IMG/VR virus record: IMGVR_UViG_3300030060_005311
Coordinates: 1 to 20,483 of that record
DNA from: a virus
DNA: 20,483 nucleotides
Direction: 5' to 3' (one strand)
Positions 4,899-17,638 of this stretch are shown here, one piece after another (the first letter of the stretch is position 1; each line of letters starts with the position of its first letter). Under the pieces are notes generated by a model that was not told the DNA's origin, ran no database searches, and worked only from the letters and a program-made list of their open reading frames with translations. Made by a program: the position numbers and the translations under genes.

Positions 4899-5728
4899 TA
4901 AGCGCTCCTCGGTTGCATACCTTGGAAAGCTTGGAATGCACTTATACCAGTTCCTATTGATTGTGCTAGTGGACTAGTTTGTGGTTGCGTAGCAGCAGTT
5001 AGAGTAGATTGTGATTTCGGACCAGCAGCATACAAATTAGATAAAAACTCAGCTCTTTGGAAAGGCTCAAATGCTTGTTGCAATTGACTTTGTCTTTGAG
5101 CATCTAATACGTTTTGAGCAAGCTGTCTTTGCAAACCACCTGCTTGTTGTAATTGTGCAATATCGGATTGTTGTTGTCTTTGTAAAGCTAGTCCTAAGTC
5201 ACCTAATGTTCTTTGTTGTTGTTGAGCTGCGGTCACTGCGTCTGTAAATCCTCTTTGTTGTGCTAATCCAACTTGACCTAATCTAGCTCTTTCTAATTCT
5301 GCTTGTGCTACTCCTTCTCTTCCACCACCAAAAGCTCCAGCATCAATGGCTCTTGCCGCTAACGTGTTTTGAGCTTGTGCAGCTTGTCTGTTAATTTCAT
5401 CTACAACAAAAGATTGATACGGGTTTAAAAATTGATTTATGTTTGGATTTTGAGCAGCAAGTAATTGTGCTATTCCAGTTCCTGTTTGTCCCGCTAATGT
5501 TTGTGCTTGTGTTTCAAGCCCTGACATAGGTGCAACTTGAATTGCAGGAATACTTACAGGTTGTTGAGCGATACTACGCCCCAGATCCATTAACTCTATT
5601 TTTCTTTCCTCTATACCAGGAGCCTCTCTAATTACTGATTGAGAAAATTGATTTCCTGCTGATGATGGCGCAGGTGCAGAGCCTCCTCCGCCACCGCCTC
5701 CAAATACGCTACTAACTATTGATCCCAT
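4898..5728 (-). CDS. Gln/Ala-rich probable internal virion protein
   Basis: The gene starts at an ATG that overlaps the preceding stop by one base (TAATG). The N-terminus carries a run of seven glycines (residues 11-17) followed by a Ser/Ala/Pro stretch. From about residue 95 to 230 the protein is extremely rich in Gln, Ala, Leu and Arg, as expected for long amphipathic helices or a coiled coil. The C-terminal 40 residues are small and polar. It sits directly downstream of a GNAT-like gene and upstream of a 738-residue gene, the place of T7 gp14, which is also a small Gln/Ala-rich internal virion protein of the ejection channel. The match is one of composition and gene order only, so the specific role is inferred. 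Confidence 0.85.
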   Translation of the reverse strand: MGSIVSSVFGGGGGGGSAPAPSSAGNQFSQSVIREAPGIEERKIELMDLGRSIAQQPVSIPAIQVAPMSGLETQAQTLAGQTGTGIAQLLAAQNPNINQFLNPYQSFVVDEINRQAAQAQNTLAARAIDAGAFGGGREGVAQAELERARLGQVGLAQQRGFTDAVTAAQQQQRTLGDLGLALQRQQQSDIAQLQQAGGLQRQLAQNVLDAQRQSQLQQAFEPFQRAEFLSNLYAAGPKSQSTLTAATQPQTSPLAQSIGTGISAFQAFQGMQPRSA

Positions 5729-6183
5729 TAAATATCTTTCTCCATTTGAATATGTTTAGCTTTCCAACCCCATTTTTTTGATATTCTAGACCAGCCAGGT
5801 CTTACCCAAAAACTAAGTTTTTTGCATCCGTTTAGTTTAGCAAACTTTGTTACTGTATTCACTATCTTGTCTTCCCATAGGTGTCTCTTCCTTCCTGTGC
5901 AGATTATTGCCTCTAATTGAGAGTAATTAGGTAAAGCTGCTATACGGGTTACAAACAAAGCAAAAACTTGATTTAGTTCTTCTTCATCACTTCCAAAAAC
6001 TAAAAACATTTGAGCTTCATCTTTTTTTAGTAAATCTTTAATATCGTGAGCTGATGCAAAATCACCTGAGTATTTTAATGCTTCAGCAATCATAAAATCA
6101 CATAAAGGCCAAAATTTATCTATGTATTTTGGTTCTACTGATAAAACTGATATGTCAGGTTTAATTGGCTTGGGCTTTTGCAT
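5728..6183 (-). CDS. GNAT-like phage protein (T7 gp13-like position)
   Basis: The 151-residue protein has the alternating beta/alpha look of an N-acetyltransferase (GNAT) fold. A helix with WEDKIVNTVTKFAK (about 103-116) is followed by a strand KKLSFWVR (121-128) and the phrase RPGWSRISKKWGWK (128-141), close in pattern to the C-terminal end of phage GNAT-like proteins (GR-GW-R---K-GW/Y). T7-like phages place a GNAT-related protein, gp13, at the head of the internal virion genes, and the same order holds here. Whether it still transfers acyl groups is doubtful, because I cannot identify a convincing acetyl-CoA R/Q-x-x-G-x-G/A loop. It overlaps the upstream gene's end by 23 bases. A virion-assembly role is more likely than metabolism. 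Confidence 0.75.
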   Translation of the reverse strand: MQKPKPIKPDISVLSVEPKYIDKFWPLCDFMIAEALKYSGDFASAHDIKDLLKKDEAQMFLVFGSDEEELNQVFALFVTRIAALPNYSQLEAIICTGRKRHLWEDKIVNTVTKFAKLNGCKKLSFWVRPGWSRISKKWGWKAKHIQMEKDI

Positions 6184-7213
6184 TTCTACTTCCTTCTAAT
6201 AAATCAAATACTCTTTTGTATCTTTTTTGTTGTTCATAGAAGTATTGTGCACCTTTTTCTCTCATATCTTTCATGCTATTTGGATTTGCTCCAGCTATGA
6301 TTCCTGCGCCTAATACTCCATCTGCTCTTGTCACAAACTCTCCGTCTGCTAATTGAGCTAACATTGTATCTTCGTCTTTATCTCCTGTGCCTGACCCATC
6401 TTCAACGTATCCCATCGCTCTAACATAATTATTAGAATCATTCTCGTTGTGAGTTCTTTTGCTTGGTAAATAGTTTATACCACCTTCATTAAATTTTTTT
6501 ATTTCTGCAAGTCCACCCTCTTTTAATCTATTACGTTCAATTGCGTATGGACCCATTTGAAAATCACCTTGATTTGCTGGATCTGCTTCAGGTATGTATA
6601 CTTGCTCAAAAGTTTTTTCTTGTCCGGTAACTGGGTCAATATACTTGAAACCACCTCTTTGTTTTTGTAATTGTGCTACCCCTAAGTTATATGTTGGTGT
6701 AAATACGTCTTGTGGTTCAGGTTCAAAAGCACCTGATGCAAACGTTCCTAAACCAATTGCAGTTGCGACTTTACCAGGGCTAAATTCCATCTCTCCTGTA
6801 GCTTTACCATCTACAAATCTTTTTCTTCTAAATAATTTATCAAACACTGAACTTACCCCACCCTGTGGAGTTGGTTGTGCTTCATTACCAACTATACCTT
6901 GTAACACTCCAGGATCGTCTCCCATAAAAGGATAGTAGTTTGTTGTAGAAGCTGCTGCTGTATTTGGAATGCCTAATGCTGGGAATGCTCTCCCTAAACT
7001 TTGCACAGGTCCTAATTGTGTAAAAGTTGGAACTGTGGTACCAAAACCTGCACCACTTACTCCAGGTATCATTTTACCACCTTGATAACCTAAAAATGCT
7101 CCGGTAGCTCCTGCTAATAATCTTTGAAGTCCTGACCCACCTGCATCTTTTGATGCTTTATAACCTTTGTATCCTCCGTAGGCTGCTAGTGCGTAGGGTA
7201 AAAATTGTATCAT
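6161..7213 (-). CDS. Phage structural protein with DGEFV/ADGV C-terminal domain
   Basis: The 350-residue product begins with a hydrophobic, glycine-rich N-terminus (residues 1-60, alternating small residues, possibly membrane-active). A low-complexity Pro/Gly/Thr middle follows. The C-terminal module around residues 284-304 has LADGEFVTRADGVLGAG, then a helical tail with KGAQYFYEQQKRYKRVFDLL (about 320-339). This module follows a pattern I recognise from many marine phage virion genes (a Ser/Ala-DGEF-V-x-A-x-V-G core followed by a short Lys/Arg helix), whose exact role is unsettled. The gene lies between the glycosyltransferase block and the putative ejection genes and overlaps the latter, so it probably belongs to the virion set. 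I would not assign a specific function. Confidence 0.8.
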   Translation of the reverse strand: MIQFLPYALAAYGGYKGYKASKDAGGSGLQRLLAGATGAFLGYQGGKMIPGVSGAGFGTTVPTFTQLGPVQSLGRAFPALGIPNTAAASTTNYYPFMGDDPGVLQGIVGNEAQPTPQGGVSSVFDKLFRRKRFVDGKATGEMEFSPGKVATAIGLGTFASGAFEPEPQDVFTPTYNLGVAQLQKQRGGFKYIDPVTGQEKTFEQVYIPEADPANQGDFQMGPYAIERNRLKEGGLAEIKKFNEGGINYLPSKRTHNENDSNNYVRAMGYVEDGSGTGDKDEDTMLAQLADGEFVTRADGVLGAGIIAGANPNSMKDMREKGAQYFYEQQKRYKRVFDLLEGSRNAKAQAN

Positions 7214-7231
7214 ATATTATGTGTTTCTTAA

Positions 7232-7243
7232 AATTAGCTAATT
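7232..7243. other. 12-bp perfect palindrome in a 46-base gap
   Basis: AATTAGCTAATT is a perfect 12-base palindrome in the 46-base gap between the GT-A-type glycosyltransferase gene and the structural gene that ends the modification block. It has no loop, so it cannot form a useful hairpin terminator. It could be a protein-binding site or chance in AT-rich DNA. Confidence 0.25.
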
Positions 7244-7259
7244 AGGAAAGTTTACCATT

Positions 7260-8081
7260 TTACTCAGTCTTTATCAACTCATCGGCAAAACACCCTCTAT
7301 ATTGGTGTTCACCCACGTGAGTAATTCGGTCGGTTATTAGTGCGTGGCATTTACCACCTATATCTTTCCATCTTTTACAGAAAGCAAAATCTTCTCCAAG
7401 ATAAGCTTTTGTTTCCTTGTCATACATTGTGTCGAAAAAATTATACATAAAAGGTCTATTTATAAGTTCACCGTTTATCACAGATTTTTGCACTATCTCC
7501 ATATCAGGATATGCTTTAATCATTTTCTCTATAACTTCTCTTTTAATTAACATACATCCAGTTGGAGAATGCGTAACCTCAATTACTCCATCTTTGATCC
7601 TTATATTCTTCTCATCCTCTACTTTCATTGGATAAGAATACAAACCTTTAAATTTTAAATCTTTAGCGTTTTTAATATTACCTTTAGAAATCCTTTCCCA
7701 AGCTTTGTCCCAAAACAATTGTTTCAAAGGGTAGGGAACTGAAATAACATCTTTATCAGCAGCGACCATTTTAAATACAGATGCTGCATTAAAGTCAATA
7801 TCAGAGTCTACAAACAATAAATGTGTATGGTTACTCTCCATAAAACTTGACACACATAAGTTTCTACCTTGCGTAACTAATGATGATTTCATAACTTGAA
7901 AAGAACAAAGTACGTTATTTTTTATACATTGTTTCTGAAGTTCTAAACAAGCTTGGAAATAATGAAGAGATACCTCACTATGACATGGTGTTGCAACAAA
8001 GATAGTAAATTTTTTTGGTTTTAACTCTTCTGTTTTAGTGGGTTCTTTTTTGAACCATATTGGTTTACTAGGATCATCCAT
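7260..8081 (-). CDS. GT-A-type glycosyltransferase
   Basis: The 273-residue protein looks like a GT-A-fold nucleotide-sugar glycosyltransferase. After a short charged N-terminal tail, a strand FTIFVATPCHS (25-35) leads into a Rossmann-like half. LLFVDSDIDF (88-97) carries the DxD motif (D92-S93-D94), expected to hold the metal and the sugar nucleotide. TGCMLIKREV (174-183) matches the usual acceptor-side segment, YLGEDFAFCKRW (227-238) supplies a plausible catalytic acid pair (E230, D231), and a late His (H255 in ITHVG) may be a further metal ligand. No signal peptide or membrane segment is visible, so it is probably cytoplasmic. It follows an oxygenase gene by one base and ends the modification block. 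Donor and acceptor cannot be told from sequence; a virion protein or a host surface glycan are both possible. Confidence 0.85.
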   Translation of the reverse strand: MDDPSKPIWFKKEPTKTEELKPKKFTIFVATPCHSEVSLHYFQACLELQKQCIKNNVLCSFQVMKSSLVTQGRNLCVSSFMESNHTHLLFVDSDIDFNAASVFKMVAADKDVISVPYPLKQLFWDKAWERISKGNIKNAKDLKFKGLYSYPMKVEDEKNIRIKDGVIEVTHSPTGCMLIKREVIEKMIKAYPDMEIVQKSVINGELINRPFMYNFFDTMYDKETKAYLGEDFAFCKRWKDIGGKCHALITDRITHVGEHQYRGCFADELIKTE

Positions 8082-8082
8082 T

Positions 8083-8571
8083 TTAAAAATAATTAAAGTT
8101 AATATTTATCCTTGATTTTGTGTTTGTGGTATTAGTGCTTTTGTGTTTTTTACTAGCATCAAAAAATAACATTCTATTAGCGACTGAGTCTATTTGAGTA
8201 TCGTCTTCTAATATTGTTTTGCCATCGTTTGTGTTTAGGTAATATATAGCACCTTTATGCGTAAATTCATAATCGGTATGCGCAGAATGTATTTGTAGTT
8301 TTTCAGTCCAAGGGTAAAGATTAGCTTTGATTCTTATTAGTGATTTAATTTGTATTTTTTTTATTATAGGTTCTATAAGTCCTATGGCCTGCGTTGGTGT
8401 ATGAAAATTATAAAATACATGTGTAAAATATGATGGTAGTGCGCCATCAACATCATGACTATTTATTTTACCATTGTAATAGTAAGGGAATTCTGAACCA
8501 GTCATAATATCGTATAAACTTTTATGCTCTTCTTTTGATAAAAAATTATCTATTATTTTGTAATCTTGCAT
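8083..8571 (-). CDS. 2OG-Fe(II) oxygenase, prolyl-4-hydroxylase-like
   Basis: The 162-residue protein shows the full iron and cosubstrate signature of the 2-oxoglutarate/Fe(II) oxygenase superfamily: HTD at H98-T99-D100, a distal histidine at H143 and an arginine at R154 (11 residues later). Beta strands typical of the double-stranded beta-helix lie between them (GAIYYLNT, RMLFFDA). The N-terminus (IIDNFLSKEEHKSLYDIM) is the usual opening of prolyl-4-hydroxylase-like members, where a helix begins after a short loop. Such enzymes couple 2OG decarboxylation to hydroxylation of a substrate. The gene overlaps the end of the glycosyltransferase gene upstream by 26 bases and is followed by the GT-A gene, so it is embedded between two glycosyltransferases. 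Confidence 0.88.
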   Translation of the reverse strand: MQDYKIIDNFLSKEEHKSLYDIMTGSEFPYYYNGKINSHDVDGALPSYFTHVFYNFHTPTQAIGLIEPIIKKIQIKSLIRIKANLYPWTEKLQIHSAHTDYEFTHKGAIYYLNTNDGKTILEDDTQIDSVANRMLFFDASKKHKSTNTTNTKSRININFNYF

Positions 8572-9487
8572 TTAATATACCTTTAAAAAAACTTGTCCAA
8601 TGTCCACTAATTGTTTTCCAATTATAAAAATGATTAAAAAAGTTTTGTTGAAATTTTAAGTGTGATTGACAACCTTGGTCATTTAATTGATCAGGCATTC
8701 CATCTATTACAGATGCAAATTGTTGTGCTAAATCTTTAAAATCTGTGCTCATAGGCACATACACAGGAAATTCAGTACAAGTTTCATATAATGCTCCGTT
8801 GTCCGTTGTTGCTACATATAGACCACATGCTAGGGCTTCAAGGATAGATATACAAAAAGTTTCTTCCCATATGTTTGGATAAATAAAAGCATCATAAGTA
8901 TGTAAGTTTTCTAATATGTAATCATTAGATTTATATCCTATGTAATTTACATTAGGTAATTGTTTTGCTTGATCGTACAAAGGTTTATAATTTTTATCAT
9001 TATCTTTTTCGAAATCACTACCATAAACTTTAGTGCTACTGTAAACATCCAAAGTAATATTTGGGTTCTTAATCAACTGCATAGCACCTAATAGAACAGA
9101 TAAACCTCTCCAAGGTGTTGGATGATATATTAATTTAAATTTATCTTTTTTCACATCGACAGGTCTTTTCTTAATTTCAGGTATACCATTTTTTATAACA
9201 GTGCATCTATGGTGTGGTATTGAAAATTTTTTTCTAAATTGTTCATAGTTCCAATGACTATTAAAAACAAAAAAATCATACTGCTGTATTTTTTCTTTAT
9301 CCTTAAAAAAATCTTGGAAGTGTGGCTGATCCGGTGCCATCTTCTGCCAAAGTATATTAATTTTATTAGCAGCTATAGGCACTCTACCAGGCACTGATAA
9401 ACATATTTGAAAGTTATCAAGTAGATCTTTCGCAACATATTTTTTTAAAAACTCATATTGTAACTCTGTTCCACCTAATGGTTCCAT
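8546..9487 (-). CDS. GT4-type (GT-B fold) glycosyltransferase
   Basis: The 313-residue protein has the marks of the GT4 retaining glycosyltransferases. GGTE at residues 5-8 corresponds to the N-terminal glycine loop that contacts the donor. KLIYHPTPWRGLSVLLGA (118-135) matches the conserved segment opening the C-terminal Rossmann domain. The donor-binding E-x7-E motif lies in EETFCISILEALACG (208-222), with E209 and E217. It is somewhat short for the family because the N-terminal domain is compact and starts right at the glycine loop. No membrane segment is seen. It lies between a cupin-type oxygenase gene (9-base gap) and a 2OG oxygenase gene (26-base overlap). The sugar and acceptor are unknown. 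Confidence 0.88.
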   Translation of the reverse strand: MEPLGGTELQYEFLKKYVAKDLLDNFQICLSVPGRVPIAANKINILWQKMAPDQPHFQDFFKDKEKIQQYDFFVFNSHWNYEQFRKKFSIPHHRCTVIKNGIPEIKKRPVDVKKDKFKLIYHPTPWRGLSVLLGAMQLIKNPNITLDVYSSTKVYGSDFEKDNDKNYKPLYDQAKQLPNVNYIGYKSNDYILENLHTYDAFIYPNIWEETFCISILEALACGLYVATTDNGALYETCTEFPVYVPMSTDFKDLAQQFASVIDGMPDQLNDQGCQSHLKFQQNFFNHFYNWKTISGHWTSFFKGILNARLQNNR

Positions 9488-9496
9488 AATTATCCT

Positions 9497-10024
9497 TTAC
9501 TTAAATACACCCCATGAACATACTATTCTTTTTTTTATAGATGATGCAGTATGAGCTATACCACAAGGTATATAAATTGCATCTGTTTCATCTATTTCAT
9601 AAACTTTATTGTGTTCAGGCACATCATAATATGTTTTTCCTAATAAACTTACTATAAAAACACTTTCTTCATCTTTGTGAATAACTCCATTGTTACCTCT
9701 TACAGAGAAAAAAATATCGGCATTAAATTTTTTGTCTTCAATATCTTTATTAAAAACTTTAGATAATTGTTGATGAGTGCTAAACAGTTTCGTATGATTT
9801 TGCATGTCATACAATTGAAAGGTGTAATCAAAAATATCATCCAAATTTACTGACATCAAAGGTGGTATCTTTATAGTGTTCTTATGATATTTAAAAGCTA
9901 ATGCTCCCCAAATATCCTCAAATGTAAATTTATCTTGTGGTTCATATATGTTTTTAAAAACTTTAACTTTATCAAAAGAAAAGTCCTTTAACATTTCTAT
10001 TTTTAACAAGTTGTTACTGATCAT
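9497..10024 (-). CDS. JmjC/cupin-type Fe(II) oxygenase-like protein
   Basis: The 175-residue protein lacks the compact prolyl-hydroxylase layout but has a JmjC/Cupin_4-like core: GVIHKDEESVFIVSLLGKTY (113-132) with the HxD pair H116/D118, then YEIDETDAIYIPCGIAHTA (142-160) with the distal histidine H158, then a closing strand IVCSWGVF (167-174). The pattern H-x-D, a strand ending in a Gly-Lys, a Pro turn and a His-Thr/Glu is that of JmjC-type ribosomal oxygenases and related cupins. The roughly 110-residue N-terminal part is not recognisable to me. It overlaps the preceding oxygenase gene by 11 bases. It probably binds iron and 2OG, but catalytic activity and substrate are inference. Confidence 0.75.
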   Translation of the reverse strand: MISNNLLKIEMLKDFSFDKVKVFKNIYEPQDKFTFEDIWGALAFKYHKNTIKIPPLMSVNLDDIFDYTFQLYDMQNHTKLFSTHQQLSKVFNKDIEDKKFNADIFFSVRGNNGVIHKDEESVFIVSLLGKTYYDVPEHNKVYEIDETDAIYIPCGIAHTASSIKKRIVCSWGVFK

Positions 10025-10604
10025 AATAGAGATTTGCTGCTACTGTTACCCTTTCACCATCGCATTGAAAAGGATTAACCCAGTGACCTAACCAGTGTGG
10101 AAATACAAAGTAATCTCCTACCTCCGGTTCAAATGTTTTACAAGTTTGATTGTGCGGATTGTTTTCACCATAACCAAACATTAAACAACCTGGTCCATTA
10201 TATTGAGATGCAGTATTTTTATAATACGCCTCTATTTCTTCTTTCAATCCTGCAGGTTTTTCTAAAATCATTACTGAAGAAAAATTACAACCTACATGTA
10301 TGTGAGGAGGATTATGTTCACCTTTCTTCATGTAGTTTACCCAAACGGAGCTAGTGTTTAAATTAGGAATATGATTTCCATAAAATTGATAATACCCATG
10401 CCTAAAAAATTCATAATATTTTTGCATGATATTATTAAAACCTTTTAAATCTAATCTAAACTCATCTTTAAAATGTCCAACTAAATCTTTTGCAGCATTG
10501 TTCTCAGGTTGTCTATTGCAGAGTTGTTTTACTTTTTCTAAATCATCAACCTCCATTTTCACCTTAAACAAAATAGGACCGAAATAATAATTATTTGCAA
10601 TCAT
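10014..10604 (-). CDS. Putative 2OG-Fe(II) oxygenase (TIGR02466/PF13759-like)
   Basis: The 196-residue protein follows the layout of the 'putative 2OG-Fe(II) oxygenase' family with an HxH rather than HxD motif. SSVWVNYMKKGEHNPPHIHV (85-104) carries H101-I102-H103, VMILEKP (111-117) is the following strand, DYFVFPHWLGHWVNP (164-178) carries the distal H174, and ERVTVAANLYY (184-194) carries R185, the residue expected to hold the 2OG carboxylate. The His-x-His pair is, to my knowledge, normal for this family. A roughly 55-residue insert between the strand and the distal histidine is longer than in its neighbours. Its start overlaps the stop of the 58-residue gene upstream (ATGA). Confidence 0.87.
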   Translation of the reverse strand: MIANNYYFGPILFKVKMEVDDLEKVKQLCNRQPENNAAKDLVGHFKDEFRLDLKGFNNIMQKYYEFFRHGYYQFYGNHIPNLNTSSVWVNYMKKGEHNPPHIHVGCNFSSVMILEKPAGLKEEIEAYYKNTASQYNGPGCLMFGYGENNPHNQTCKTFEPEVGDYFVFPHWLGHWVNPFQCDGERVTVAANLYYDQ

Positions 10605-10777
10605 GGTTTTGTTTTAGTAAAAATAGGTAAGTCAGGAACTTGTACTTCAATATCTGTAGCCAGGTCATCTTTAGAATGTTCTTTTAAAAACGCCTCTTCT
10701 GTTTCGTATCTCTCGCCTGTTTTAATACTTCTGTAGATAGTTTTGGTCTTACATTTAATTTTTTGCATTGTAGCCAT
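10601..10777 (-). CDS. Small unknown protein (58 residues)
   Basis: A minus-strand frame of 58 codons plus stop starts at the ATG at 10777 and ends at 10601, with its TGA overlapping the ATG of the following oxygenase gene (ATGA). It reads MATMQKIKCKTKTIYRSIKT at the N-terminus, then a short acidic/basic mixed segment (GERYETEEAFLKEHSKDD) and a Pro-rich tail. The stop/start overlap, tight spacing and coding-like composition support a real gene. I do not recognise a domain. It could be a small regulator, an accessory factor or a virion component. Confidence 0.7.
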   Translation of the reverse strand: MATMQKIKCKTKTIYRSIKTGERYETEEAFLKEHSKDDLATDIEVQVPDLPIFTKTKP

Positions 10778-10796
10778 TAAGTTTTAATACATTAAA

Positions 10797-10931
10797 TTAA
10801 CGACCTTGTCCACGATTTCGTTTACGACTCGGAATGCGTTTACTATAACTTTTTGCATGTCTTCCAGGACGTTTTTTAGGTGTCCGTTTAACATAATTAC
10901 TAGGTCCAAATACTGATTTCTTTTTAGCCAT
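10797..10931 (-). CDS. Tiny, extremely basic protein (44 residues)
   Basis: The 44-codon frame runs from the ATG at 10931 to a TAA at 10797-10799. The product begins MAKKKSVFGPSNYVKRTPKK and continues with PGRHAKSYSKRIPSRKRNRG. By my count 17 of 44 residues are Lys or Arg and none is Asp or Glu. This suggests a nucleic-acid-binding peptide, such as a DNA-condensing or RNA-binding factor. Its start overlaps the end of the prolyl-hydroxylase-like gene by 8 bases. I associate short basic proteins with an FGPSNYVKRTPKKRPGRH-like core with marine phages, but no function is known to me. Confidence 0.78.
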   Translation of the reverse strand: MAKKKSVFGPSNYVKRTPKKRPGRHAKSYSKRIPSRKRNRGQGR

Positions 10932-11361
10932 TTTTATACCAAGCTAAGATAACATATCTCTGTCCTGACTTTAAGGTAGTGACCCTATGTTTTAAATCAG
11001 AGGTGAAACAAATTAATTTACCTGCTTTTGGCTGTATCACATAATCTTCTATTTGTGTTCTTCCACCTTCATAATTATCGTTTAGATAAAGTATAGTAGA
11101 ATGATCATAATAAATAGTATCATCATGCCAATCGTGTGATTCGCCTATTCCCCATGAGATTAACTCTAAAGTTTTTAATTTTTTTGTAGGATACAAAGAT
11201 ACATACTTTTGTTTTATACTATCAATCACTGGATCTTTAATTGTTAATAAATCAATTATAAATCTACCTCTAAAAGTTCTTGATACGTTTTGATTACGTG
11301 TAAAAAATTGTATGCAATATTCACAAGTGTCTTTGGATAAAAAACCTGAAACTTGTATCAT
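10924..11361 (-). CDS. 2OG-Fe(II) oxygenase, prolyl-4-hydroxylase-like
   Basis: The 145-residue protein is a compact, complete P4Hc-type oxygenase. The N-terminus (VSGFLSKDTCEYCIQFF) is the usual opening helix. SHDWHDD (75-81) provides the HxD ligands H79 and D81, TILYLNDNYEGGRTQI (89-104) is the characteristic strand plus 'NDNYEGG' turn, GKLICFTSDLKHRV (114-127) carries the distal H125, and R135 in GQRYVILAWY is the 2OG-binding arginine (10 residues after the distal His). All four expected residues are present. By family this is a peptidyl hydroxylase or a small-molecule hydroxylase; the substrate is unknown. It abuts another oxygenase gene upstream with a 4-base overlap. Confidence 0.9.
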   Translation of the reverse strand: MIQVSGFLSKDTCEYCIQFFTRNQNVSRTFRGRFIIDLLTIKDPVIDSIKQKYVSLYPTKKLKTLELISWGIGESHDWHDDTIYYDHSTILYLNDNYEGGRTQIEDYVIQPKAGKLICFTSDLKHRVTTLKSGQRYVILAWYKNG

Positions 11362-11894
11362 CTTGTAAACTCAAAATTTATATTACCAGAAATAGTTTCT
11401 TGATTTGTGGATGGTTTTACTCCGTGTGATAGAAAACTTGGAAAAAGTGCTATAGTATCAGATTTAAATTTGGTATGATAATGAGGGTTAAAAATATCTT
11501 GCATATTAAAGCTTTCGATCAAATCTGAATTAGGTGCAATAAAGTAAGTATTACTTTGTTCTACCTTCTTATAAATAATAAAACTAAAATTAGACTCAGT
11601 GTGTATGTGTGGTTCTTGAAAGCCGTCTTGTATATATTTGTTAGTCCAAACTGCAGTTAATTGTATCTTAAAAAAATTAAACCTTTCAGACAAAAGTTTA
11701 CTTAATATATTTAATAGATAAATGTTAGAGTCCTCAGTTAAAAGATTAGCTTCTTTTATATTAGAATTAAAGCTTGATAAAGTTTTACTTATAAAAGTAG
11801 GTTCTGGTATAAATGGTTTTTGTTTTTTAAATATAATTTTTTTACTATCAATATCCGTATAGAATAAAGGTATCTTAAATATATCTTCAACCAT
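11358..11894 (-). CDS. 2OG-Fe(II) oxygenase-like protein with missing 2OG arginine
   Basis: The 178-residue protein belongs with its two upstream neighbours to the HxH-type putative 2OG-Fe(II) oxygenase group. EPHIHTESNFSFIIYKKV (94-111) holds H96/H98 and IALFPSFLSHGVKP (148-161) holds the distal H157. In related neighbours the closing strand is D/S-RISLSF with an arginine 11 residues after the distal histidine. Here that strand reads ETISGNINF and threonine (T167) stands at the arginine position. The fold and iron site look intact but the 2OG anchor does not. It may use another cosubstrate-binding residue, or be inactive. It overlaps the upstream gene by 8 bases. Confidence 0.8.
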   Translation of the reverse strand: MVEDIFKIPLFYTDIDSKKIIFKKQKPFIPEPTFISKTLSSFNSNIKEANLLTEDSNIYLLNILSKLLSERFNFFKIQLTAVWTNKYIQDGFQEPHIHTESNFSFIIYKKVEQSNTYFIAPNSDLIESFNMQDIFNPHYHTKFKSDTIALFPSFLSHGVKPSTNQETISGNINFEFTR

Positions 11895-12444
11895 TTTGTA
11901 TTTCTATATCAAAAGACAGACTAATTCTATCTTTTTCGTTATTACCCGGTGTTACATAGTGTAGAATGTGAGCTGGAAATAATACTAATAAACCCTCTTT
12001 TGGTGTTATGCTATAGTCATAGGCACTATCGGTATTAGGTTTAAAAAAATCACTCATCACACTATTACTAGATCTTCTAAAAAAAATTAAATTACCTGAG
12101 CCTTCAGGCACGTCTACATAATACACAGCTGAAAAATGCGCCCCTTGATGATCGTGAATTATATTGTGTGAATCTTTTTTATTAGAGTTAATCCAACATT
12201 TAGTAATGTTTATTTTGCAAATCTTTAAACCGAACTCGTTTAATAAATTATTAACAGGGTCCTTGAAAAAATTAAATATTTTATCATCTAATATATTCTT
12301 AGTCTGTATACCTTTTCTGTTACTAGCCGTTAAAACGTTAGCCTCATTAATCGAGTTATATAAAAGAGTGTGTATGTGCTCTTTAATATTGTTTGTTAAA
12401 TTTATCGTAGAAATTGATTCGCTAAATATAATTTTTTTAACCAT
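11887..12444 (-). CDS. Putative 2OG-Fe(II) oxygenase (TIGR02466/PF13759-like), paralogue A
   Basis: The 185-residue protein has IIHDHQGAHFSAVYYVDVPE (95-114) with H97/H99, LLVLFPAHILHYVTPG (152-167) with distal H162, and DRISLSFDI (172-180) with R173 as the 2OG-carboxylate ligand. It is clearly a duplicate of the gene immediately upstream. Both begin with a KKIIFS-[ED]-SI motif (residues 3-11) and share a -G-[IL]-QT-x-x-ILD- segment (residues 45-53), the same strand order and the same length. It follows its paralogue by one base. It is expected to be a soluble hydroxylase of unknown substrate. Confidence 0.87.
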   Translation of the reverse strand: MVKKIIFSESISTINLTNNIKEHIHTLLYNSINEANVLTASNRKGIQTKNILDDKIFNFFKDPVNNLLNEFGLKICKINITKCWINSNKKDSHNIIHDHQGAHFSAVYYVDVPEGSGNLIFFRRSSNSVMSDFFKPNTDSAYDYSITPKEGLLVLFPAHILHYVTPGNNEKDRISLSFDIEIQNG

Positions 12445-12445
12445 A

Positions 12446-13006
12446 TTATTCTACGTTTATGTTAAAAGATAAACTAATTCTAGACTCATCAGAATTGTTA
12501 GGCTTTACTTCATGTTGCAGATGTGCTGGAAAAATCATAAATAAATTATTACTAGGAGTGACTGAATAATAGCAGAATGAATCTGTGGTTGAAAACAAAG
12601 GTGGATATGCCTGCATAGAAACACAAACATCATTTCTAAAAAAACTTATATCACCACTGTTTTCTGGAACAACGCTATAATAATTTCCAACAAATAAAGC
12701 CCTTGGATGAACATGTAAAATATTATAATCACCCTTTTTATTTTCATTAACCCAAGCAGAAGATATCCAAATCTTTTTTGCTTTAACTTGAAAAGCATCA
12801 AGACCTTTTTTTATACTTTCTGTTAAGCAATTAGATAAAGTTTCATCTAATATGTCAGATGTTTGTAAACCACCTTGATTAGATCTTATAGTCAATTGAT
12901 TTTGTTCTTTAGCTTTTTTTAAAATAGTTTGTATGTGTGTATCAAGCACTGCATCTTTGAGGTCTGATGTATATATAGAATCACTAAAAATAATTTTTTT
13001 AGCCAT
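12446..13006 (-). CDS. Putative 2OG-Fe(II) oxygenase (TIGR02466/PF13759-like), paralogue B
   Basis: The 186-residue protein shows ILHVHPRALFVGNYYSVVPE (96-115) with H98/H100, FMIFPAHLQHEVKPN (156-170) with distal H165, and SRISLSFNI (175-183) with R176 eleven residues later, the complete iron and 2OG set of this family. It is the sister of the next gene downstream. The start was taken at ATG 13006, overlapping the end of the beta-rich small gene by 8 bases; an AGGAG sits only one base before it, closer than normal for a ribosome binding site, so coupling to the upstream gene may drive translation. Confidence 0.87.
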   Translation of the reverse strand: MAKKIIFSDSIYTSDLKDAVLDTHIQTILKKAKEQNQLTIRSNQGGLQTSDILDETLSNCLTESIKKGLDAFQVKAKKIWISSAWVNENKKGDYNILHVHPRALFVGNYYSVVPENSGDISFFRNDVCVSMQAYPPLFSTTDSFCYYSVTPSNNLFMIFPAHLQHEVKPNNSDESRISLSFNINVE

Positions 13007-13349
13007 TCTCCTGAGATCTATCTATCTGAGCATAACTTATAGCACCTTGAATTTTATTGCTACCTGAAGCTGCTGTCACTGTTATTGAGTCGCCTGCCTC
13101 AAGATTAATACCTTGTGGTGAGGCGTTCACTTGTGTCTTAGCTGCAACATCGTCTCTAAAAAATTCATACTCCGCACTTGAATCTGAGGAGTCGACTAAA
13201 TTCATATTTACTAAAATTGCTGATGACGCATCGTTATTAGCTACATAAATACTTTTAATTATAATAGTTGCGTTAGTTGGGCATGTAAGAACTGTAGTTT
13301 TTCCCGTGCTCGCTTGTTTATAGCCTTGATTTTTATATTGTATTGTCAT
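12999..13349 (-). CDS. Small beta-rich probable virion protein
   Basis: The 116-residue protein consists of alternating hydrophobic strands (TTVLTCPTNATIIIKSIYVA, ILVNMNLVD, DSITVTAASGSNKIQGAISY) with short Gly/Ser/Asn turns, as in an all-beta jelly-roll or Ig-like sandwich. No signal peptide or catalytic motif is seen. Similar small beta proteins occur next to tail or head genes of marine phages, which fits its place after the P22 gp10-like gene, but I cannot name a specific counterpart. Its ATG overlaps the stop of the 54-residue gene (ATGA). Confidence 0.8.
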   Translation of the reverse strand: MTIQYKNQGYKQASTGKTTVLTCPTNATIIIKSIYVANNDASSAILVNMNLVDSSDSSAEYEFFRDDVAAKTQVNASPQGINLEAGDSITVTAASGSNKIQGAISYAQIDRSQENG

Positions 13350-13510
13350 GATAAAAAATAGTTAAATGCATCAGCCTCATTTTTTATATCATTCTCATAA
13401 GAGAAGTTCAACTGAGATTGTAGAGTACGAAAAGCTTGAAGTATTTGTCTTTGATCTTCCTGAGAGTATTCAGCTTTAGGCTCTGGTATTTGAATTGTAA
13501 TTTTAGCCAT
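13346..13510 (-). CDS. Small unknown protein (54 residues)
   Basis: The frame starts with ATG at 13510, overlapping the TAA of the 726-residue gene by one base (TAATG), and ends in TGA at 13346-13348, overlapping the next ATG. The product starts MAKITIQIPEPKAEYSQEDQ and continues as a predicted helix with Gln, Leu and Asp/Glu and an aromatic C-terminus (AFNYFLS). The coupled junctions at both ends strongly support a real gene. I do not recognise it; a small tail-accessory or assembly protein is a guess from context. Confidence 0.75.
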   Translation of the reverse strand: MAKITIQIPEPKAEYSQEDQRQILQAFRTLQSQLNFSYENDIKNEADAFNYFLS

Positions 13511-15690
13511 TACCTTCTTCCGTCAACTCTTACATCAAATCTAAAAGTGCCATATCTAAAACTTTCATCAATACTATCACACTCAATCTGCACTGCAGCC
13601 AATCTAGCTCTAGCTCGAGTGTCTATTTTTGTTGTGCTGGAGGACACAGTAAAAGGTCCTAGAGGACTCGAAGCTGCTACACTACCTTGTGGAAAAGCAT
13701 TCAAAAAAATTGTAACTTTTGCATTACCACTTATTCTTTTAAAATCTGGCATAAATCTTTTTACGCTCATCAAAAATTCACCATCTCCAGGAACCCCCTG
13801 TCTACCATTTAAATCAAACTCACCTGATTTAATAAAAGCAGGTATCGCAGTTGTAGTTCCGTCTCCATTTAATTGATTTACACCAACCTCATGTGCGTAA
13901 TAAATTGTAGCGCCATTAGATACTCCACTTACCACAGGAAATGTGGGAGTATCACTAGCTTCAAAATCTGTTGCGTAAGGAACTTCAAACACAGTGGATC
14001 CCATCCAAGTAGTCCTATCTAAAGTTCCTGTTGTCCAAACATTTTCAGCATAATTGTAAGTAACAACCCTGTCTATCGCAGTAGATCCTGATGTAGGATA
14101 GAACCAATTGATTTCAGAATATAATTCATTTATTCCACCGAAAACTATTTGACCAGAGTCATAATTAATACCTGGGTTATTTCCTGTTGTGGTAAATACA
14201 AAATCCTCTACAAGACATGGCAATGATTTTACTGTTCCATCATAAACAAAAAATCCGCCTGTTTTACCCATCCAATAGACAGCTCCATTAGCAAAGACAC
14301 CTGCATGTTGTCCTAGAAGACCAGCGTTAGATCCTACCTTTCTAATAGAAAAAGTAAAAGGCGGTCCAACAAATTGCATTTCATATGCGGCTGTATCTGT
14401 TAAAACTAAAATATAATCCTTACCTTTGAAAGCTCCTATAATCTGTGTTCCATCATCCAACTTAAAAGTTCCTGCGGTGTTCGTTGAAGTGGGTGCGTAT
14501 TCACTTTTATTTTCTTGATCAGAAAACCTTATAAACATTTTATCTTGAGAAGAAGGTGTTCCGATTGTCGTCTCTGTGCCTAGATGAAAAAGATGCCTAT
14601 CTCTATCAGATACAATCGTCATAACAGATTTAGTTGGCATTCCTGTTCCAATGACAGCTCTCGTTTGTAAAGCATTAGTCGCAGCGGCATCCCAAGTAAA
14701 TGTCTCACCATTGTGCACAGTAGCTATTAAAAAATTTCCAAAATTATCTAACGACCAGTTAGCAGGATCAATAGTAACTGTGCTTGAAGTTGATGCATCG
14801 CCCCAACCTATATATTCACTAATATCTGTTACTGTTGAGCCGTTTGCATGTTCAGCGGGGGTTGTTGAATTTAATCCTCGAGTTATTCCACTTAGAGTAT
14901 TTGATCCAGTGTTGTTGGTTGTGTACTCCATATCTTCAGATCCTATTCTTATTTTTCCAGATGCAGGAAAGCTAGCAGTGCTTGTTAAGATGACCGAAGA
15001 TGCACCTACTAACATTGGTCCACCATTGTTAACAGTTGTAGTCACCTGAGCAACAGTTCTACCACCCCAAAGATAAGTGCCCCAACCATACCCTGCTGAT
15101 TGATTTAAAGGTCCTACAGTTACATAAGGTCTAACATCTAAAGTTCCATTATTGGTTACACCTGACTTACTCTCATTTGACGGCATGGTAATTGTAAAAG
15201 TTGTTATTGATGGAACAGATTGGATCTCAAAAAGTTTGTCATCAAAATCTGTTGCAGTAAAAACTGTGTTTGCAGAAGTGAAAGATCCTGCGTTTGCAAA
15301 AGTAACAATATCACCCACTTCTAAATTGTGCCCAGCCGTTGTTGTTATGGTAACTGTTGATGATCCGTTGGTCGTTGTTATGTCTGCCCCAGTAGAAAAA
15401 TTATCAGTATCTAAAGGTGTAATGTCATAAAAAGCACCACCAAAATAAATTATTAAAACCTTATCAGTTCCTATGGCAGCGTATTTTTTACCATCTGTAG
15501 AAGCCCACACATGTTGTGCTCTAGCTGCACCTACAAGTTTATCATCTACTAATGCTTGCCACCCTCCAATCTTTTCAGGTTCACCATATCTAAATCTTAT
15601 ATTGTCACCGTCTACGAATCTTCCTTCAGCATCTGAAGGTGTAGATTGTTTATCGAATCCTGGTGCTATATTAACTTTTGCTAGTGGCAT
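13510..15690 (-). CDS. P22 gp10-like tail/packaged-DNA stabilisation protein
   Basis: The 726-residue protein opens with PLAKVNIAPGFDKQSTPSDA (2-21) and RFVDGDNIRFRYGEPEKIGG (24-43), the typical start of P22 gp10-related tail proteins. Middle blocks agree: IRFSDQENKSEYAP (387-400), ILVLTDTAAYEMQFVGPPFTF (427-447) and VYWMGKTGGFFVYDG (471-485). P22 gp10 (about 470 residues) closes the portal channel under the packaged genome as part of the tail. This protein is longer because of two beta-type inserts: one near 105-140 (gly-rich, HNLEVGDIVTFANAG) and one near 229-290 (FPASGKIRIGSEDMEYT, TRGLNSTTPAEHANG). It is not clear whether it also serves as a receptor-facing hub. No Shine-Dalgarno sequence precedes the start; a TATAAT lies 6 bases upstream. 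Confidence 0.88.
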   Translation of the reverse strand: MPLAKVNIAPGFDKQSTPSDAEGRFVDGDNIRFRYGEPEKIGGWQALVDDKLVGAARAQHVWASTDGKKYAAIGTDKVLIIYFGGAFYDITPLDTDNFSTGADITTTNGSSTVTITTTAGHNLEVGDIVTFANAGSFTSANTVFTATDFDDKLFEIQSVPSITTFTITMPSNESKSGVTNNGTLDVRPYVTVGPLNQSAGYGWGTYLWGGRTVAQVTTTVNNGGPMLVGASSVILTSTASFPASGKIRIGSEDMEYTTNNTGSNTLSGITRGLNSTTPAEHANGSTVTDISEYIGWGDASTSSTVTIDPANWSLDNFGNFLIATVHNGETFTWDAAATNALQTRAVIGTGMPTKSVMTIVSDRDRHLFHLGTETTIGTPSSQDKMFIRFSDQENKSEYAPTSTNTAGTFKLDDGTQIIGAFKGKDYILVLTDTAAYEMQFVGPPFTFSIRKVGSNAGLLGQHAGVFANGAVYWMGKTGGFFVYDGTVKSLPCLVEDFVFTTTGNNPGINYDSGQIVFGGINELYSEINWFYPTSGSTAIDRVVTYNYAENVWTTGTLDRTTWMGSTVFEVPYATDFEASDTPTFPVVSGVSNGATIYYAHEVGVNQLNGDGTTTAIPAFIKSGEFDLNGRQGVPGDGEFLMSVKRFMPDFKRISGNAKVTIFLNAFPQGSVAASSPLGPFTVSSSTTKIDTRARARLAAVQIECDSIDESFRYGTFRFDVRVDGRR

Positions 15691-15696
15691 AGCAGT

Positions 15697-15702
15697 ATTA
15701 TA
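15697..15702 (-). promoter_or_regulatory. Possible -10 box just upstream of the gp10-like gene
   Basis: On the minus strand the 50-base gap contains GATGATATAATACTGCT directly before the ATG. TATAAT is a perfect -10 consensus, but it lies only 6 bases from the start codon, which would give a leaderless transcript, and the best -35 at 17 bases spacing (TTCATT) is weak. No Shine-Dalgarno sequence is visible. In AT-rich DNA this could be chance. Confidence 0.25.
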
Positions 15703-15740
15703 TCATCACGTTGTGTAGAAATGAAGTGTTCTGTTCAAAC

Positions 15741-16289
15741 CTATTTTTTAGCAATACCTCTAAAAGCATCATCTTTGAATTGTTGAAAATTAAAAGCTAT
15801 TGCATACTTAGAATTATTTGAAGTGTTTACTGGAGATGAGTGTCGTAAAATACCACTGAATAGAACTAATGAATTTTTCTCAGGATAAACTTCTAGGTTC
15901 AAATCTGGAAAAATTAAAGGTGTATTTTTTTCAGATAAATAAAGCACACCAGATATCGGGCTTGCTATATGATCATGTTCTTGTGTGAAATCGTTTGTAT
16001 CGTGTCTTAAACCCCAAGCTTCATGTAAATTCATTCTTTGAAAATTACCTGCTTCAGTAACTTTATGCATACCTTGAGCCATGGCTTGTAAAAAATCAGG
16101 GTCATGATCAAAAGCATGCCAAACCGTCATTTTGCCTTTTACATTTGTAGCATAATTTAAATTATTTTGTGAAATCAAATGATCTATTTTTTTTATTAAT
16201 TTTTCACTGTCACACTGCACTATGTATTCATGTAAAAAAACTTTTACATTTATTTCTTTCTCAATCTGTTTTCTTATCATTTGGTTCAA
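15741..16289 (-). CDS. Putative 2OG-Fe(II) oxygenase with Lys at the 2OG-arginine position
   Basis: The 182-residue protein carries QEHDHIASPISGVLYLSE (103-120) with the HxH pair H105/H107, then LVLFSGILRHSSP (141-153) with distal H150, and SKYAIAFNF (160-168), where lysine K161 occupies the site (11 residues after the distal His) that holds arginine in the sister genes. The fold is the HxH-type putative 2OG-Fe(II) oxygenase. Whether lysine can replace the arginine in binding 2OG is not known here. The annotated start overlaps the end of the 80-residue gene by 29 bases; the second Met (residue 4) would shorten this overlap by 9 bases. Confidence 0.85.
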   Translation of the reverse strand: MNQMIRKQIEKEINVKVFLHEYIVQCDSEKLIKKIDHLISQNNLNYATNVKGKMTVWHAFDHDPDFLQAMAQGMHKVTEAGNFQRMNLHEAWGLRHDTNDFTQEHDHIASPISGVLYLSEKNTPLIFPDLNLEVYPEKNSLVLFSGILRHSSPVNTSNNSKYAIAFNFQQFKDDAFRGIAKK

Positions 16290-16503
16290 CAGGTGTAACA
16301 GTTTGATTATGTGAAAATTTATTTTTATAGCTCGGGTGAAAGTTAGCTTGCCATGTAGATATAATAGCTATTAATATATTACCAAAATGTTTCAAAGCTG
16401 GACCATCTAAGTGTAACTTTCTTCTTTTAATAAGTGTCCAAACCTCTTTCCAAGTAAATATAATATCAGCTGAACCGTCTTTTTTATTTTGCCTTATTTC
16501 CAT
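16261..16503 (-). CDS. Small conserved-looking phage protein (80 residues)
   Basis: The 80-residue product has a mixed N-terminus (MEIRQNKKDGSADIIFTWKE), a helical Lys/Leu-rich middle (VWTLIKRRKLHLDGPALKHF, 21-40) and a hydrophobic segment (ILIAIISTWQANF, 43-55), ending in a polar tail rich in Asn and Lys. I recall similar short proteins with an LKHFGN-like segment in marine phages, but no function is known to me. It lies one base downstream of the 184-residue oxygenase gene and overlaps the next oxygenase gene. Its conservation cannot be tested from this sequence alone. Confidence 0.78.
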   Translation of the reverse strand: MEIRQNKKDGSADIIFTWKEVWTLIKRRKLHLDGPALKHFGNILIAIISTWQANFHPSYKNKFSHNQTVTPVEPNDKKTD

Positions 16504-17058
16504 TTATCCTCCTTTTTGTGTTCCCCATAACATTCTTCCATCTCTGAAATGATTTGCGTGTATTCCGTTTTTATTAACATAATGTAAAAATGCTTGTGCA
16601 CAATAATCACCAGTAAAATTTTCTCTCCAATGTTCTACTTCACAACCAGCATAAACAACTCCATCTCCTGGTTGTAAAATGATGCTCTTATCATTTATAA
16701 ATATTGGCCAATCAGTTCCACAAGATCCTAAATTTACTGTAACACTATACTCACAAGACGGTCTATCTTTATGTTTTTTTAAATCTGCATTGAAAGTATA
16801 CATTCTCCAATATGAGTAAGTTGGCAAAAGTTCTAATCCAACTAAATCATTCATAGTTTTATTTTTACTAACAAGTAAGGCATCAATTACTTTATCACCG
16901 TAAAAAGATGTATCTCCCTGCTCAGATTGAACCCACTCAAAACTATCAAAATTTAATCTATGTGCAATTCTTGAATAATGATGCAATAAATCTACCTCAC
17001 CTTTTGATAAAAAATTAGGTATCTTTTTATATCTTATTTCACCTAAAGAATCTTTCAT
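16504..17058 (-). CDS. 2OG-Fe(II) oxygenase-like protein, divergent family
   Basis: The 184-residue protein has the HxD ligands in LKKHKDRPSCEYSVTVNLG (93-111; H96, D98) and a distal histidine in GDGVVYAGCEVEHWRENF (131-148; H143), separated by strand-rich sequence (PIFINDKSIILQPG). The HKDRPSCEYSVTVNLG stretch, with Arg-Pro after the Asp, follows a pattern I recognise from a group of phage-encoded oxygenases. The closing strand is FTGDYCAQAFLHYV, and no arginine lies at the usual position 10-11 after the distal His; Q155 or R145 are the only candidates. The N-terminus (IPNFLSKGEVDLLHHYSRIA) begins like P4Hc enzymes. It lies one base after the 192-residue oxygenase gene. Confidence 0.82.
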   Translation of the reverse strand: MKDSLGEIRYKKIPNFLSKGEVDLLHHYSRIAHRLNFDSFEWVQSEQGDTSFYGDKVIDALLVSKNKTMNDLVGLELLPTYSYWRMYTFNADLKKHKDRPSCEYSVTVNLGSCGTDWPIFINDKSIILQPGDGVVYAGCEVEHWRENFTGDYCAQAFLHYVNKNGIHANHFRDGRMLWGTQKGG

Positions 17059-17059
17059 A

Positions 17060-17638
17060 CTATTGCAGCCAAGATACGATTGAATATCTTGTTCCTTTTT
17101 TTACCGGGTTGATTTTGTGTGGATACATAAAATTACTTGGCCAAATAATTATCCTTCCTGGCACAACATCTATTTTAATTTCAGGATCATCAAGAGTTTT
17201 AAAACAAAGTTCTCCTCCTTCATAATCATTATTTAACAAAATAATACAACTAAATTTTCTATTAAAACCATGACCATCATCAACGTGATATTTATAATGT
17301 TGGTTTTTTTGATATTTCAAAGCTTGCATATCAAAGACTTGTGCGTAATAAACATCTTTGAACTCATCCACATATTTTGACATAGCTTTTACTATAAAAG
17401 AATTCATAAGAGCAAACCAATGACAATTACTCATAGAATCATTACAATTATTTAAACCTATAATATCGACATCTCTTATTTCTTTGTTAAGAGTCCCCTT
17501 TCCGGCTTCTTTTAATCCAATAGTTCCACTCTCTGATCTGCCCTCATCGAAAGCCTTAGATAAATATTTAATACAACCACCAATAAATTTTGGTGGGATT
17601 AATCCATCGTATGTTCTGATAAAATGTTTGGTGTCCAT
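17060..17638 (-). CDS. 2OG-Fe(II) oxygenase, prolyl-4-hydroxylase-like
   Basis: The 192-residue protein carries the complete P4Hc signature. HYKYHVDDGHGFNRKFSCII (114-133) holds HxD at H118 and D120, LLNNDYEGGELCF (134-146) is the conserved turn, and GRIIIWPSNFMYPHKINPV (161-179) holds distal H174, with R184 in KGTRYSIVSW completing the 2OG site, ten residues after the His. The N-terminus (FIRTYDGLIPPKFIGGCIKY) begins as in Asp/Pro hydroxylases. Enzymes of this family hydroxylate peptidyl proline or other small substrates. It is the first gene of the oxygenase block, and the short gap before it holds a hairpin and a possible promoter. Confidence 0.9.
   Translation of the reverse strand: MDTKHFIRTYDGLIPPKFIGGCIKYLSKAFDEGRSESGTIGLKEAGKGTLNKEIRDVDIIGLNNCNDSMSNCHWFALMNSFIVKAMSKYVDEFKDVYYAQVFDMQALKYQKNQHYKYHVDDGHGFNRKFSCIILLNNDYEGGELCFKTLDDPEIKIDVVPGRIIIWPSNFMYPHKINPVKKGTRYSIVSWLQ

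Follow-up and report, generated by a model that had tools for sequence, protein, structure and literature searches.

Pelagiphages of the HTVC023P type, which infect the ocean bacterium SAR11, carry up to eight non-orthologous 2OG-Fe(II) oxygenases (PMC9599517), and 24 oxygenases are reported for cyanophage S-SCSM1 (PMC9602691). In HTVC023P-type phages these genes lie near tail genes together with phrog_2954, a family labelled 'ferrochelatase' since phage S-PM2. The stretch of DNA analysed here (the window, 20.5 kb) is a fragment of an HTVC023P-type pelagiphage, as typed by its virion protein, and has the same arrangement. It has backbone genes in common with HTVC023P (MN698239), HTVC027P (MN698241) and 023Pt_psg01 (MW574966). 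Tail-region oxygenase matches number five in HTVC023P, three in HTVC027P and ten in the window, whose oxygenases mostly belong to different groups. All ten ORFs are intact on the minus strand between positions 8083 and 17638, at the lengths given by an earlier reading of the sequence alone, and take up about 5.4 of the 9.6 kb (Table 1). They form no contiguous run, being broken up by a virion protein, a 116-aa protein, an 80-aa protein, a glycosyltransferase and two small ORFs. A scan for promoters and terminators found no more than expected by chance.

Table 1. Features of the oxygenase block and adjoining genes in the window.
Feature	Coordinates	Strand	Family, motif or remark
Tail-fibre protein, 453 aa	18141..19502	-	C-terminal glycine-rich domain (PF21722); upstream of ox1/ox2
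ox1, 192 aa, P4Hc-type 2OG-Fe(II) oxygenase	17060..17638	-	phrog_61, PF13640; H118/D120, H174, R184
ox2, 184 aa, prolyl-hydroxylase-like fold	16504..17058	-	phrog_2954 ('ferrochelatase' label); H96/D98...H143
Conserved small protein, 80 aa	16261..16503	-	between ox2 and slot A
ox3, 182 aa, PF13759-type	15741..16289	-	slot A; HxH...H; Lys replaces 2OG Arg
Virion structural protein, 726 aa	13510..15690	-	phrog_3287; backbone anchor for finding relatives
Backbone protein, 116 aa	12999..13349	-	phrog_1276, weak
ox4, 186 aa	12446..13006	-	slot C; PF13759/TIGR02466, above both cut-offs; HxH...H...R
ox5, 185 aa	11887..12444	-	PF13759/TIGR02466; HxH...H...R
ox6, 178 aa, PF13759-type	11358..11894	-	HxH...H; 2OG Arg missing
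ox7, 145 aa, P4Hc-type	10924..11361	-	phrog_2297, PF13640; HxD...H...R
K/R/P-rich microprotein, 44 aa	10797..10931	-	intact in 34/34 blocks examined
Small ORF, 58 aa	10601..10777	-	after microprotein, position of HTVC023P gp76
ox8, 196 aa, PF13759-type	10014..10604	-	HxH...H...R
ox9, 175 aa, JmjC/cupin-type	9497..10024	-	phrog_4992; H116/D118...H158...R166
Glycosyltransferase group 1, 313 aa	8546..9487	-	PF00534; block backbone
ox10, 162 aa, P4Hc-like	8083..8571	-	phrog_274 (labelled 'DNA endonuclease V'); HxD...H...R
Glycosyltransferase-like protein, 273 aa	7260..8081	-	phrog_1574, weak Anp1 match; block backbone

HMM searches, structure models of two members and conserved metal-site residues confirmed that the ten ORFs are divergent members of the double-stranded beta-helix Fe(II) oxygenases, for which Fe(II)/2OG catalysis is predicted. 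The sequence-only reading had proposed ten such genes within 9.6 kb, and this was borne out down to the exact subfamily count of three P4Hc-like, five PF13759/TIGR02466-like (HxH...H), one phrog_2954 and one JmjC/cupin-like protein. ox1 and ox7 match PF13640 at 63.6 and 45.9 bits (cut-off 27), in addition to their phrog families. ox10 matches phrog_274 (E = 5e-47) and scores 20.9 bits against PF13640, below the cut-off of 27; a phrog_274 relative in P-SSM2 reaches 27.3 bits, and the ox10 profile finds ox1 (E = 2.8e-5) with an alignment on the metal-triad and Arg residues. An HxD/E...H triad with a distal Arg or Lys is present in 130 of 131 scored ox1/ox7-type proteins and in 37 of 38 of the ox10 type. 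The HxD...H...R pattern of ox1, ox7 and ox10 is common to prolyl 4-hydroxylase, PHD and PKHD (PiuC) enzymes, which also have the fold of ox2, although their sequence similarity to the window oxygenases is low. The five PF13759-type proteins all exceed the family cut-off (30.7-78.7 bits versus 27) and match phrog_81, and among them only ox4 and ox5 reach the TIGR02466 cut-off. In family score and in the HxH...H...R pattern they resemble the solved but uncharacterised members 2rg4 and 3bvc, with departures in ox3, which has Lys, and in ox6, which together with two aligned relatives lacks the Arg expected to hold 2OG. Across PF13759-type proteins, HxH...H, a putative three-His metal site, is found in 146 of 148 and a distal Arg or Lys in 124-125. 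Structures were modelled for ox2 and ox9, the two most doubtful of the members without a Pfam match above cut-off. ox9 scores 18 bits against JmjC_2 (cut-off 22), and the pLDDT of its model is 68.7 overall and about 75-91 in the C-terminal jelly roll. At this moderate model confidence, its best PDB fold matches are mostly JmjC ribosomal oxygenases, including YcfD, NO66 and MINA53; H116, D118, H158 and R166 are conserved in 14/14 ox9-type proteins. The ten oxygenases are at most 40% identical to one another, which fits different targets or sites.

ox2 matches phrog_2954 (E = 2.6e-47) and has no Pfam oxygenase match. Its model (pLDDT 95.7) finds prolyl hydroxylases as top PDB matches (TM about 0.67), with P. 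putida P4H in complex with EF-Tu among the best and the chelatase fold absent from the best 50. The HxD...H triad is present in 97 of 104 phrog_2954 members, and an Arg two residues past the distal His is invariant in a 39-member alignment. Profile searches with the ox2 family gave no match in the PDB and no significant match to the ox1 family (E = 0.17); the 39 phrog_2954 members had no significant Pfam match, that to ferrochelatase (PF00762) included. Identification of ox2 as a ferrochelatase (HemH) was rejected on the missing Pfam match, the missing chelatase fold and the presence of an oxygenase fold and motif, the likeness being confined to the database label of phrog_2954 and phrog_3531. 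From fold and motif, phrog_2954 looks like a prolyl-hydroxylase-fold oxygenase. A P4Hc gene followed directly by ox2 stands downstream of the tail fibre in 39 of the 42 full-span loci compared, and homologues of ox1 and ox2 are fused in ACG-2014f and S-SCSM1. The re-reading of phrog_2954 as an oxygenase, fused or adjacent to a P4Hc oxygenase, is new here.

Frequent recombination could have brought in the extra oxygenases as neutral cargo or as structural pseudoenzymes, as loss of the metal ligands in 6-7 of the 104 ox2 homologues and the ox6 group without its 2OG Arg might suggest. However, the metal ligands are otherwise almost invariant in the PF13759, ox10 and ox9 types, an omega of 0.22-0.40 in sampled genes indicates purifying selection, and 5 kb of neutral genes would be rare in a small phage genome. 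We regard this explanation as most improbable.

Since megablast of the window against phage records returned nothing, relatives were sought with two proteins of the block, the 726-aa virion protein and the 273-aa glycosyltransferase-like one; when viral contigs were searched with ox9 or ox5 alone, no relative was confirmed. The full-span loci include 33 non-redundant blocks, the window among them. The block is the tail-fibre-to-tail segment of HTVC023P-type pelagiphages, with a fixed backbone of tail fibre, ox1, ox2, the 726-aa virion protein, the 116-aa protein, the 44-aa basic microprotein, two glycosyltransferase-type genes and a 350-aa protein. The slots between these genes differ in content from genome to genome and mostly hold divergent Fe(II)/2OG-type oxygenases; eight slot oxygenases and the fixed pair ox1/ox2 make up the ten in the window. 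The microprotein was considered as a dedicated substrate and dropped, similar proteins being found in HTVC021P-like pelagiphages of another type.

Turnover in the slots is high: when oxygenases are grouped at 60% identity, 96 of 112 groups occur once. Identity to the best relative is about 42-81% for the window oxygenases, compared with 79-93% for the 726-aa anchor in its closest relatives. ox4 is 81% identical to an oxygenase of locus L018 that also follows the 116-aa gene, and ox8 is 80% identical to one in L021. Tandem duplication as the main origin was dropped, given the low mutual identity of the window paralogues and better matches for most genes in other genomes; ox4 and ox5, the pair at 40% identity, may be an old duplication. 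Alternative slot contents are sulfotransferase, APS-kinase-like and nucleotidyltransferase-like genes (L008 and L128), a carbamoyltransferase (L052 and L042, the former also with a DXD glycosyltransferase) and a CmcI-type methyltransferase (L155). Likewise new here is the layout of the block: tail and glycosyltransferase genes as a fixed backbone, and exchangeable slots that in relatives take up genes for sulfation and for carbamoyl-, glycosyl- and methyl-transferases as well.

The 32 non-redundant relatives spanning the whole block hold 2-7 oxygenases each (median 4, mean 3.9, SD 1.4), and ten is therefore the highest number among the 33 blocks. To this extent the 'unusual expansion' of the sequence-only reading stands, but its kind is known, both from the eight of HTVC023P-type phages and from the 20-24 of T4-like marine phages, where our scans counted 23 in P-SSM2 and, in HTVC008M, about 20, of which 7 fall within 9.6 kb. 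With these counts and the 24 of S-SCSM1, 'one or a few' oxygenases per phage is an understatement. The ten-oxygenase block is an extreme case of a known habit of HTVC023P-type phages. The T4-like marine phages (S-SCSM1, P-SSM2, HTVC008M, Mosig EXVC030M) carry the same subfamilies (PF13640, PF13759, phrog_274, and phrog_2954 or its P4Hc partner) in local runs of 5-7. In Mosig, S-SCSM1 and HTVC008M such runs have tail or baseplate genes as neighbours. Unlike in the window phage, their genomes are larger, the genes more dispersed and the podovirus tail backbone absent. The proposal of one late transcription unit is not supported as worded; the oxygenase runs of HTVC027P and HTVC008M lie on the strand opposite their structural neighbours.

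A dedicated hydroxylation programme, whose substrate we infer, is plausible. Tentatively, we favour the view that the slots are a swappable module for hydroxylating and afterwards decorating a target on a surface, that of the phage's own tail being the most likely. Slot genes would be made alongside tail proteins, and the oxygenases would oxidise side chains or sugars, by hydroxylation or in another way; the oxidised product would then be decorated by glycosyltransferases, joined in some genomes by enzymes of sulfation, carbamoyl transfer or methyl transfer. The tail fibre or tail surface is the most likely target, a glycan on the host surface being the other candidate, and rapid exchange of slot genes would alter the chemistry presented to hosts or competing phages. 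Three observations run counter to such a module. Relatives of these genes also lie in replication regions of cyanophages (P-SSM2, S-P4). The correlation between oxygenase content and tail fibre is weak (partial r 0.25, p 0.026), and neither this nor the covariation with other backbone genes was significant after correction for nine comparisons. Passages on the S-SCSM1 virion proteome give 45 phage proteins and name no oxygenase among them (PMC9602691), although a modifying role would be compatible with this.

Most papers treat the oxygenases as auxiliary metabolic genes (PMC9602691, PMC9599517, PMC11561400), which would redirect the metabolism of the host (2-oxoglutarate, iron or nutrient pathways) and have no surface target. 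Infection by HTVC027P raises host iron-uptake genes, a rise that the authors link to oxygenase gp73 (PMC12753301). However, the oxygenases are neighbours of tail and glycosyltransferase genes, are replaced rapidly and occupy slots that in other genomes hold sulfation and carbamoylation genes, and the heme link depends on the 'ferrochelatase' label, which fold and motif contradict; we consider a metabolic role rather unlikely. Alternatively, polysaccharide on the host surface might undergo the same tailoring, which would mask receptors or exclude superinfecting phages. The fixed backbone includes two glycosyltransferase-type genes, and the slot alternatives are typical polysaccharide-decorating enzymes, whereas the genes occupy the structural region adjoining the tail fibre instead of an early host-takeover region and no nucleotide-sugar pathway was seen in the window, and we judge a host target unlikely.

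The fold matches of ox2 and ox9 bring to mind enzymes that hydroxylate the host translation machinery, such as Pseudomonas P4H, which acts on EF-Tu, and YcfD, which acts on a ribosomal protein. However, a substrate is not deducible from matches at 10-19% identity, and a conserved host target fits poorly with the exchange of slot genes and with the transferases that share the slots, making such a role very unlikely. Hypermodification of phage DNA, with oxygenases producing hydroxylated bases that glycosyl- or carbamoyl-transferases cap, has precedents in a carbamoyltransferase acting on 5-hydroxymethylcytosine (PMC8670742) and in other hypermodification genes of some HTVC023P-type phages (PMC9599517). 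Nevertheless, no window oxygenase matches Tet_JBP, which a cyanophage fusion alone matches weakly; the base-modifying carbamoyltransferases adjoin thymidylate synthase and deaminase genes (PMC8670742), none of which were seen here, and ten enzymes exceed the needs of a base pathway. We find DNA hypermodification highly unlikely.

If phrog_2954 is an oxygenase family, two published results should be read again: the connection drawn between phage oxygenases and heme synthesis (PMC9599517) and the enrichment of 'ferrochelatase' by season (PMC11561400). Counts of oxygenases in marine viromes would then be too low, an error to which the 'endonuclease V' label of phrog_274 adds. More speculatively than the module itself, the fixed oxygenase pair, two glycosyltransferases and exchangeable hydroxylation, sulfation, carbamoylation and methylation cassettes could constitute a combinatorial surface-tailoring module that marks the virion tail, or a host glycan, with a chemical pattern specific to the phage, and this might account for the large number of unexplained 2OG oxygenases kept by marine phages. 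In the marine-phage papers cited here these enzymes have no assigned substrate. Because cultures exist of both type phages, HTVC023P and HTVC027P, ten oxygenases in 9.6 kb, with a fixed pair and swap-in slots, offer a compact test system.

Judged by sequence, the window, an entire virus record of 20,483 bases, comes from an HTVC023P-type pelagiphage and covers part of its genome. Its 726-aa virion protein shares 79-93% identity with the nearest uncultivated relatives, the best-matching named phages being HTVC027P, 023Pt_psg01 and HTVC023P (45-56%). Gene order is that of HTVC023P, running from the tail fibre and virion protein through a 116-aa protein, a 44-aa protein with small ORFs and the glycosyltransferases to 350-, 151- and 276-aa proteins. 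All ten oxygenase ORFs described in the sequence-only reading were found, a count that covers the 20,483-base fragment. The HMM searches that it proposed placed five proteins (182, 186, 185, 178 and 196 aa) above the PF13759 cut-off and two (192 and 145 aa) above that of PF13640; the 162-aa protein belongs to phrog_274 (PF13640 match sub-threshold), the 175-aa protein to phrog_4992 (JmjC_2 match sub-threshold) and the 184-aa protein to phrog_2954. Metal ligands are almost invariant among relatives of the ten: the P4Hc group has the pattern HxD/E...H...R/K, HxH...H is present in 146/148 PF13759-type proteins, HxD...H in 97/104 phrog_2954 proteins, and HxD...H...R/K in 37 of 38 phrog_274-type proteins and all 14 of the 175-aa (ox9) type. 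Sampled oxygenase genes are under purifying selection, with omega 0.22-0.40 versus 0.04 in the virion protein.

The usual site of such enzymes is two histidines and one carboxylate. Because of their HxH pattern, which is common to the family and also seen in 2rg4 and 3bvc, bacterial members with solved structures, the five PF13759-type enzymes are implied to hold the metal by three histidines. The distal Arg or Lys expected to hold 2-oxoglutarate is kept in most PF13759-type proteins and missing from the 178-aa protein (ox6) and two aligned relatives; 2-oxoglutarate use by all five is putative.

Both phrog_2954 and phrog_3531 are labelled ferrochelatase, a name in use for S-PM2 and many later records; none of 39 members matches a Pfam ferrochelatase model. 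As the sequence-only reading had suggested, we predicted the structure of the 184-aa protein; the confident model (pLDDT 95.7) has prolyl hydroxylases as its best solved-structure matches (TM about 0.67), with no chelatase among the best 50. Since sequence-profile comparison with the P4Hc family was not significant, the case that phrog_2954 has an oxygenase fold rests on the predicted fold and the conserved HxD and distal His. Three ligand-lost homologues were also seen (Table); L013 has a second copy with an intact triad. In ACG-2014f the 362-aa 'ferrochelatase' fuses a phrog_2954 domain with a PF13640 domain, and S-SCSM1_248 is built alike; in 39/42 loci the pelagiphage blocks have the corresponding genes, ox1 then ox2, separate and adjoining. 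A joint action of the two is therefore probable. Doubt also attaches to 'DNA endonuclease V' as the label of phrog_274, because the only Pfam family matched by the P-SSM2 'denV' of that group is PF13640 (27.3 bits).

Coordinates of features in the window and related loci
Feature	Locus	Position	Strand
Virion protein, 726 aa	window	13510-15690	
K/R/P-rich microprotein, 44 aa	window	10797-10931	-
Probable sulfation genes in oxygenase slots	L008	5014-6525	
Probable sulfation genes in oxygenase slots	L128	3835-5781	
Carbamoyltransferase in two overlapping frames	L042	8345-9785	
Six oxygenase-type genes after tail fibre	L168 (Mosig EXVC030M)	3147-8232	
2OG oxygenase gene, tryptophan halogenase gene directly after	L170 (HTVC008M)	15199-17158	
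Ligand-lost phrog_2954 homologue	L010	9169-9723	
Ligand-lost phrog_2954 homologue	L013	4229-4762	
Ligand-lost phrog_2954 homologue	L068	1141-1731	

Across 42 loci spanning the block, some of them near-duplicates, the window has ten oxygenases, the next highest seven and the median is four; 32 non-redundant relatives average 3.9 (SD 1.4). HTVC023P is in this sample, with its ox1/ox2 pair outside the counted span, and partial blocks (L050, L032 and similar), which do not span the whole backbone, were left out; several have 7-8 oxygenase hits. By merged hits HTVC008M has 20 oxygenases (7 within 9.6 kb) and P-SSM2 has 23 (6 within 9.6 kb). Ten in a single block is the maximum found here, but the 'unusual expansion' is as such already known: HTVC023P-type phages have eight distinct oxygenases on record (PMC9599517) and S-SCSM1 has 24 (PMC9602691). 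The observation is confirmed and the earlier interpretation, a dedicated hydroxylation or oxidation programme, is partly supported; the window is an extreme case within a type already known.

Among related blocks the backbone is constant and the slots between its genes vary in content; 96 of 112 oxygenase groups at 60% identity occur once in the sample. Slots in L008 and L128 hold sulfotransferase, APS-kinase-like and nucleotidyltransferase-like genes, probably a sulfation cassette; others hold a carbamoyltransferase (L052, and L042 in split form), a CmcI-type methyltransferase (L155), further oxygenase-like proteins or, again in L052, a DXD glycosyltransferase. The split L042 carbamoyltransferase perhaps reflects a frameshift or assembly error. 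The microprotein is intact and in the same place in 34/34 blocks, and similar proteins occur in HTVC021P-like pelagiphages.

The analysis shows ten oxygenase-type genes, conserved metal sites and purifying selection, together with one fixed gene pair and exchangeable slots that can hold transferase genes instead. We infer that the oxygenases would hydroxylate a surface target that would then be decorated, most likely the phage tail, with host glycan next. The tail fibre had the strongest association with oxygenase content in a covariation test (p 0.026), not significant after nine comparisons. Mosig, S-SCSM1 and HTVC008M likewise have runs of oxygenase genes close to those for tail fibres or baseplates; in Mosig, genes for heme oxygenase and phycocyanobilin:ferredoxin oxidoreductase come after the run. 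Cyanophage relatives of the window's genes also lie within replication regions. Action on host metabolism, on host translation proteins or in DNA modification remains an alternative to surface tailoring. The largest additions made here are the re-annotation of phrog_2954 and the picture of tailoring slots.
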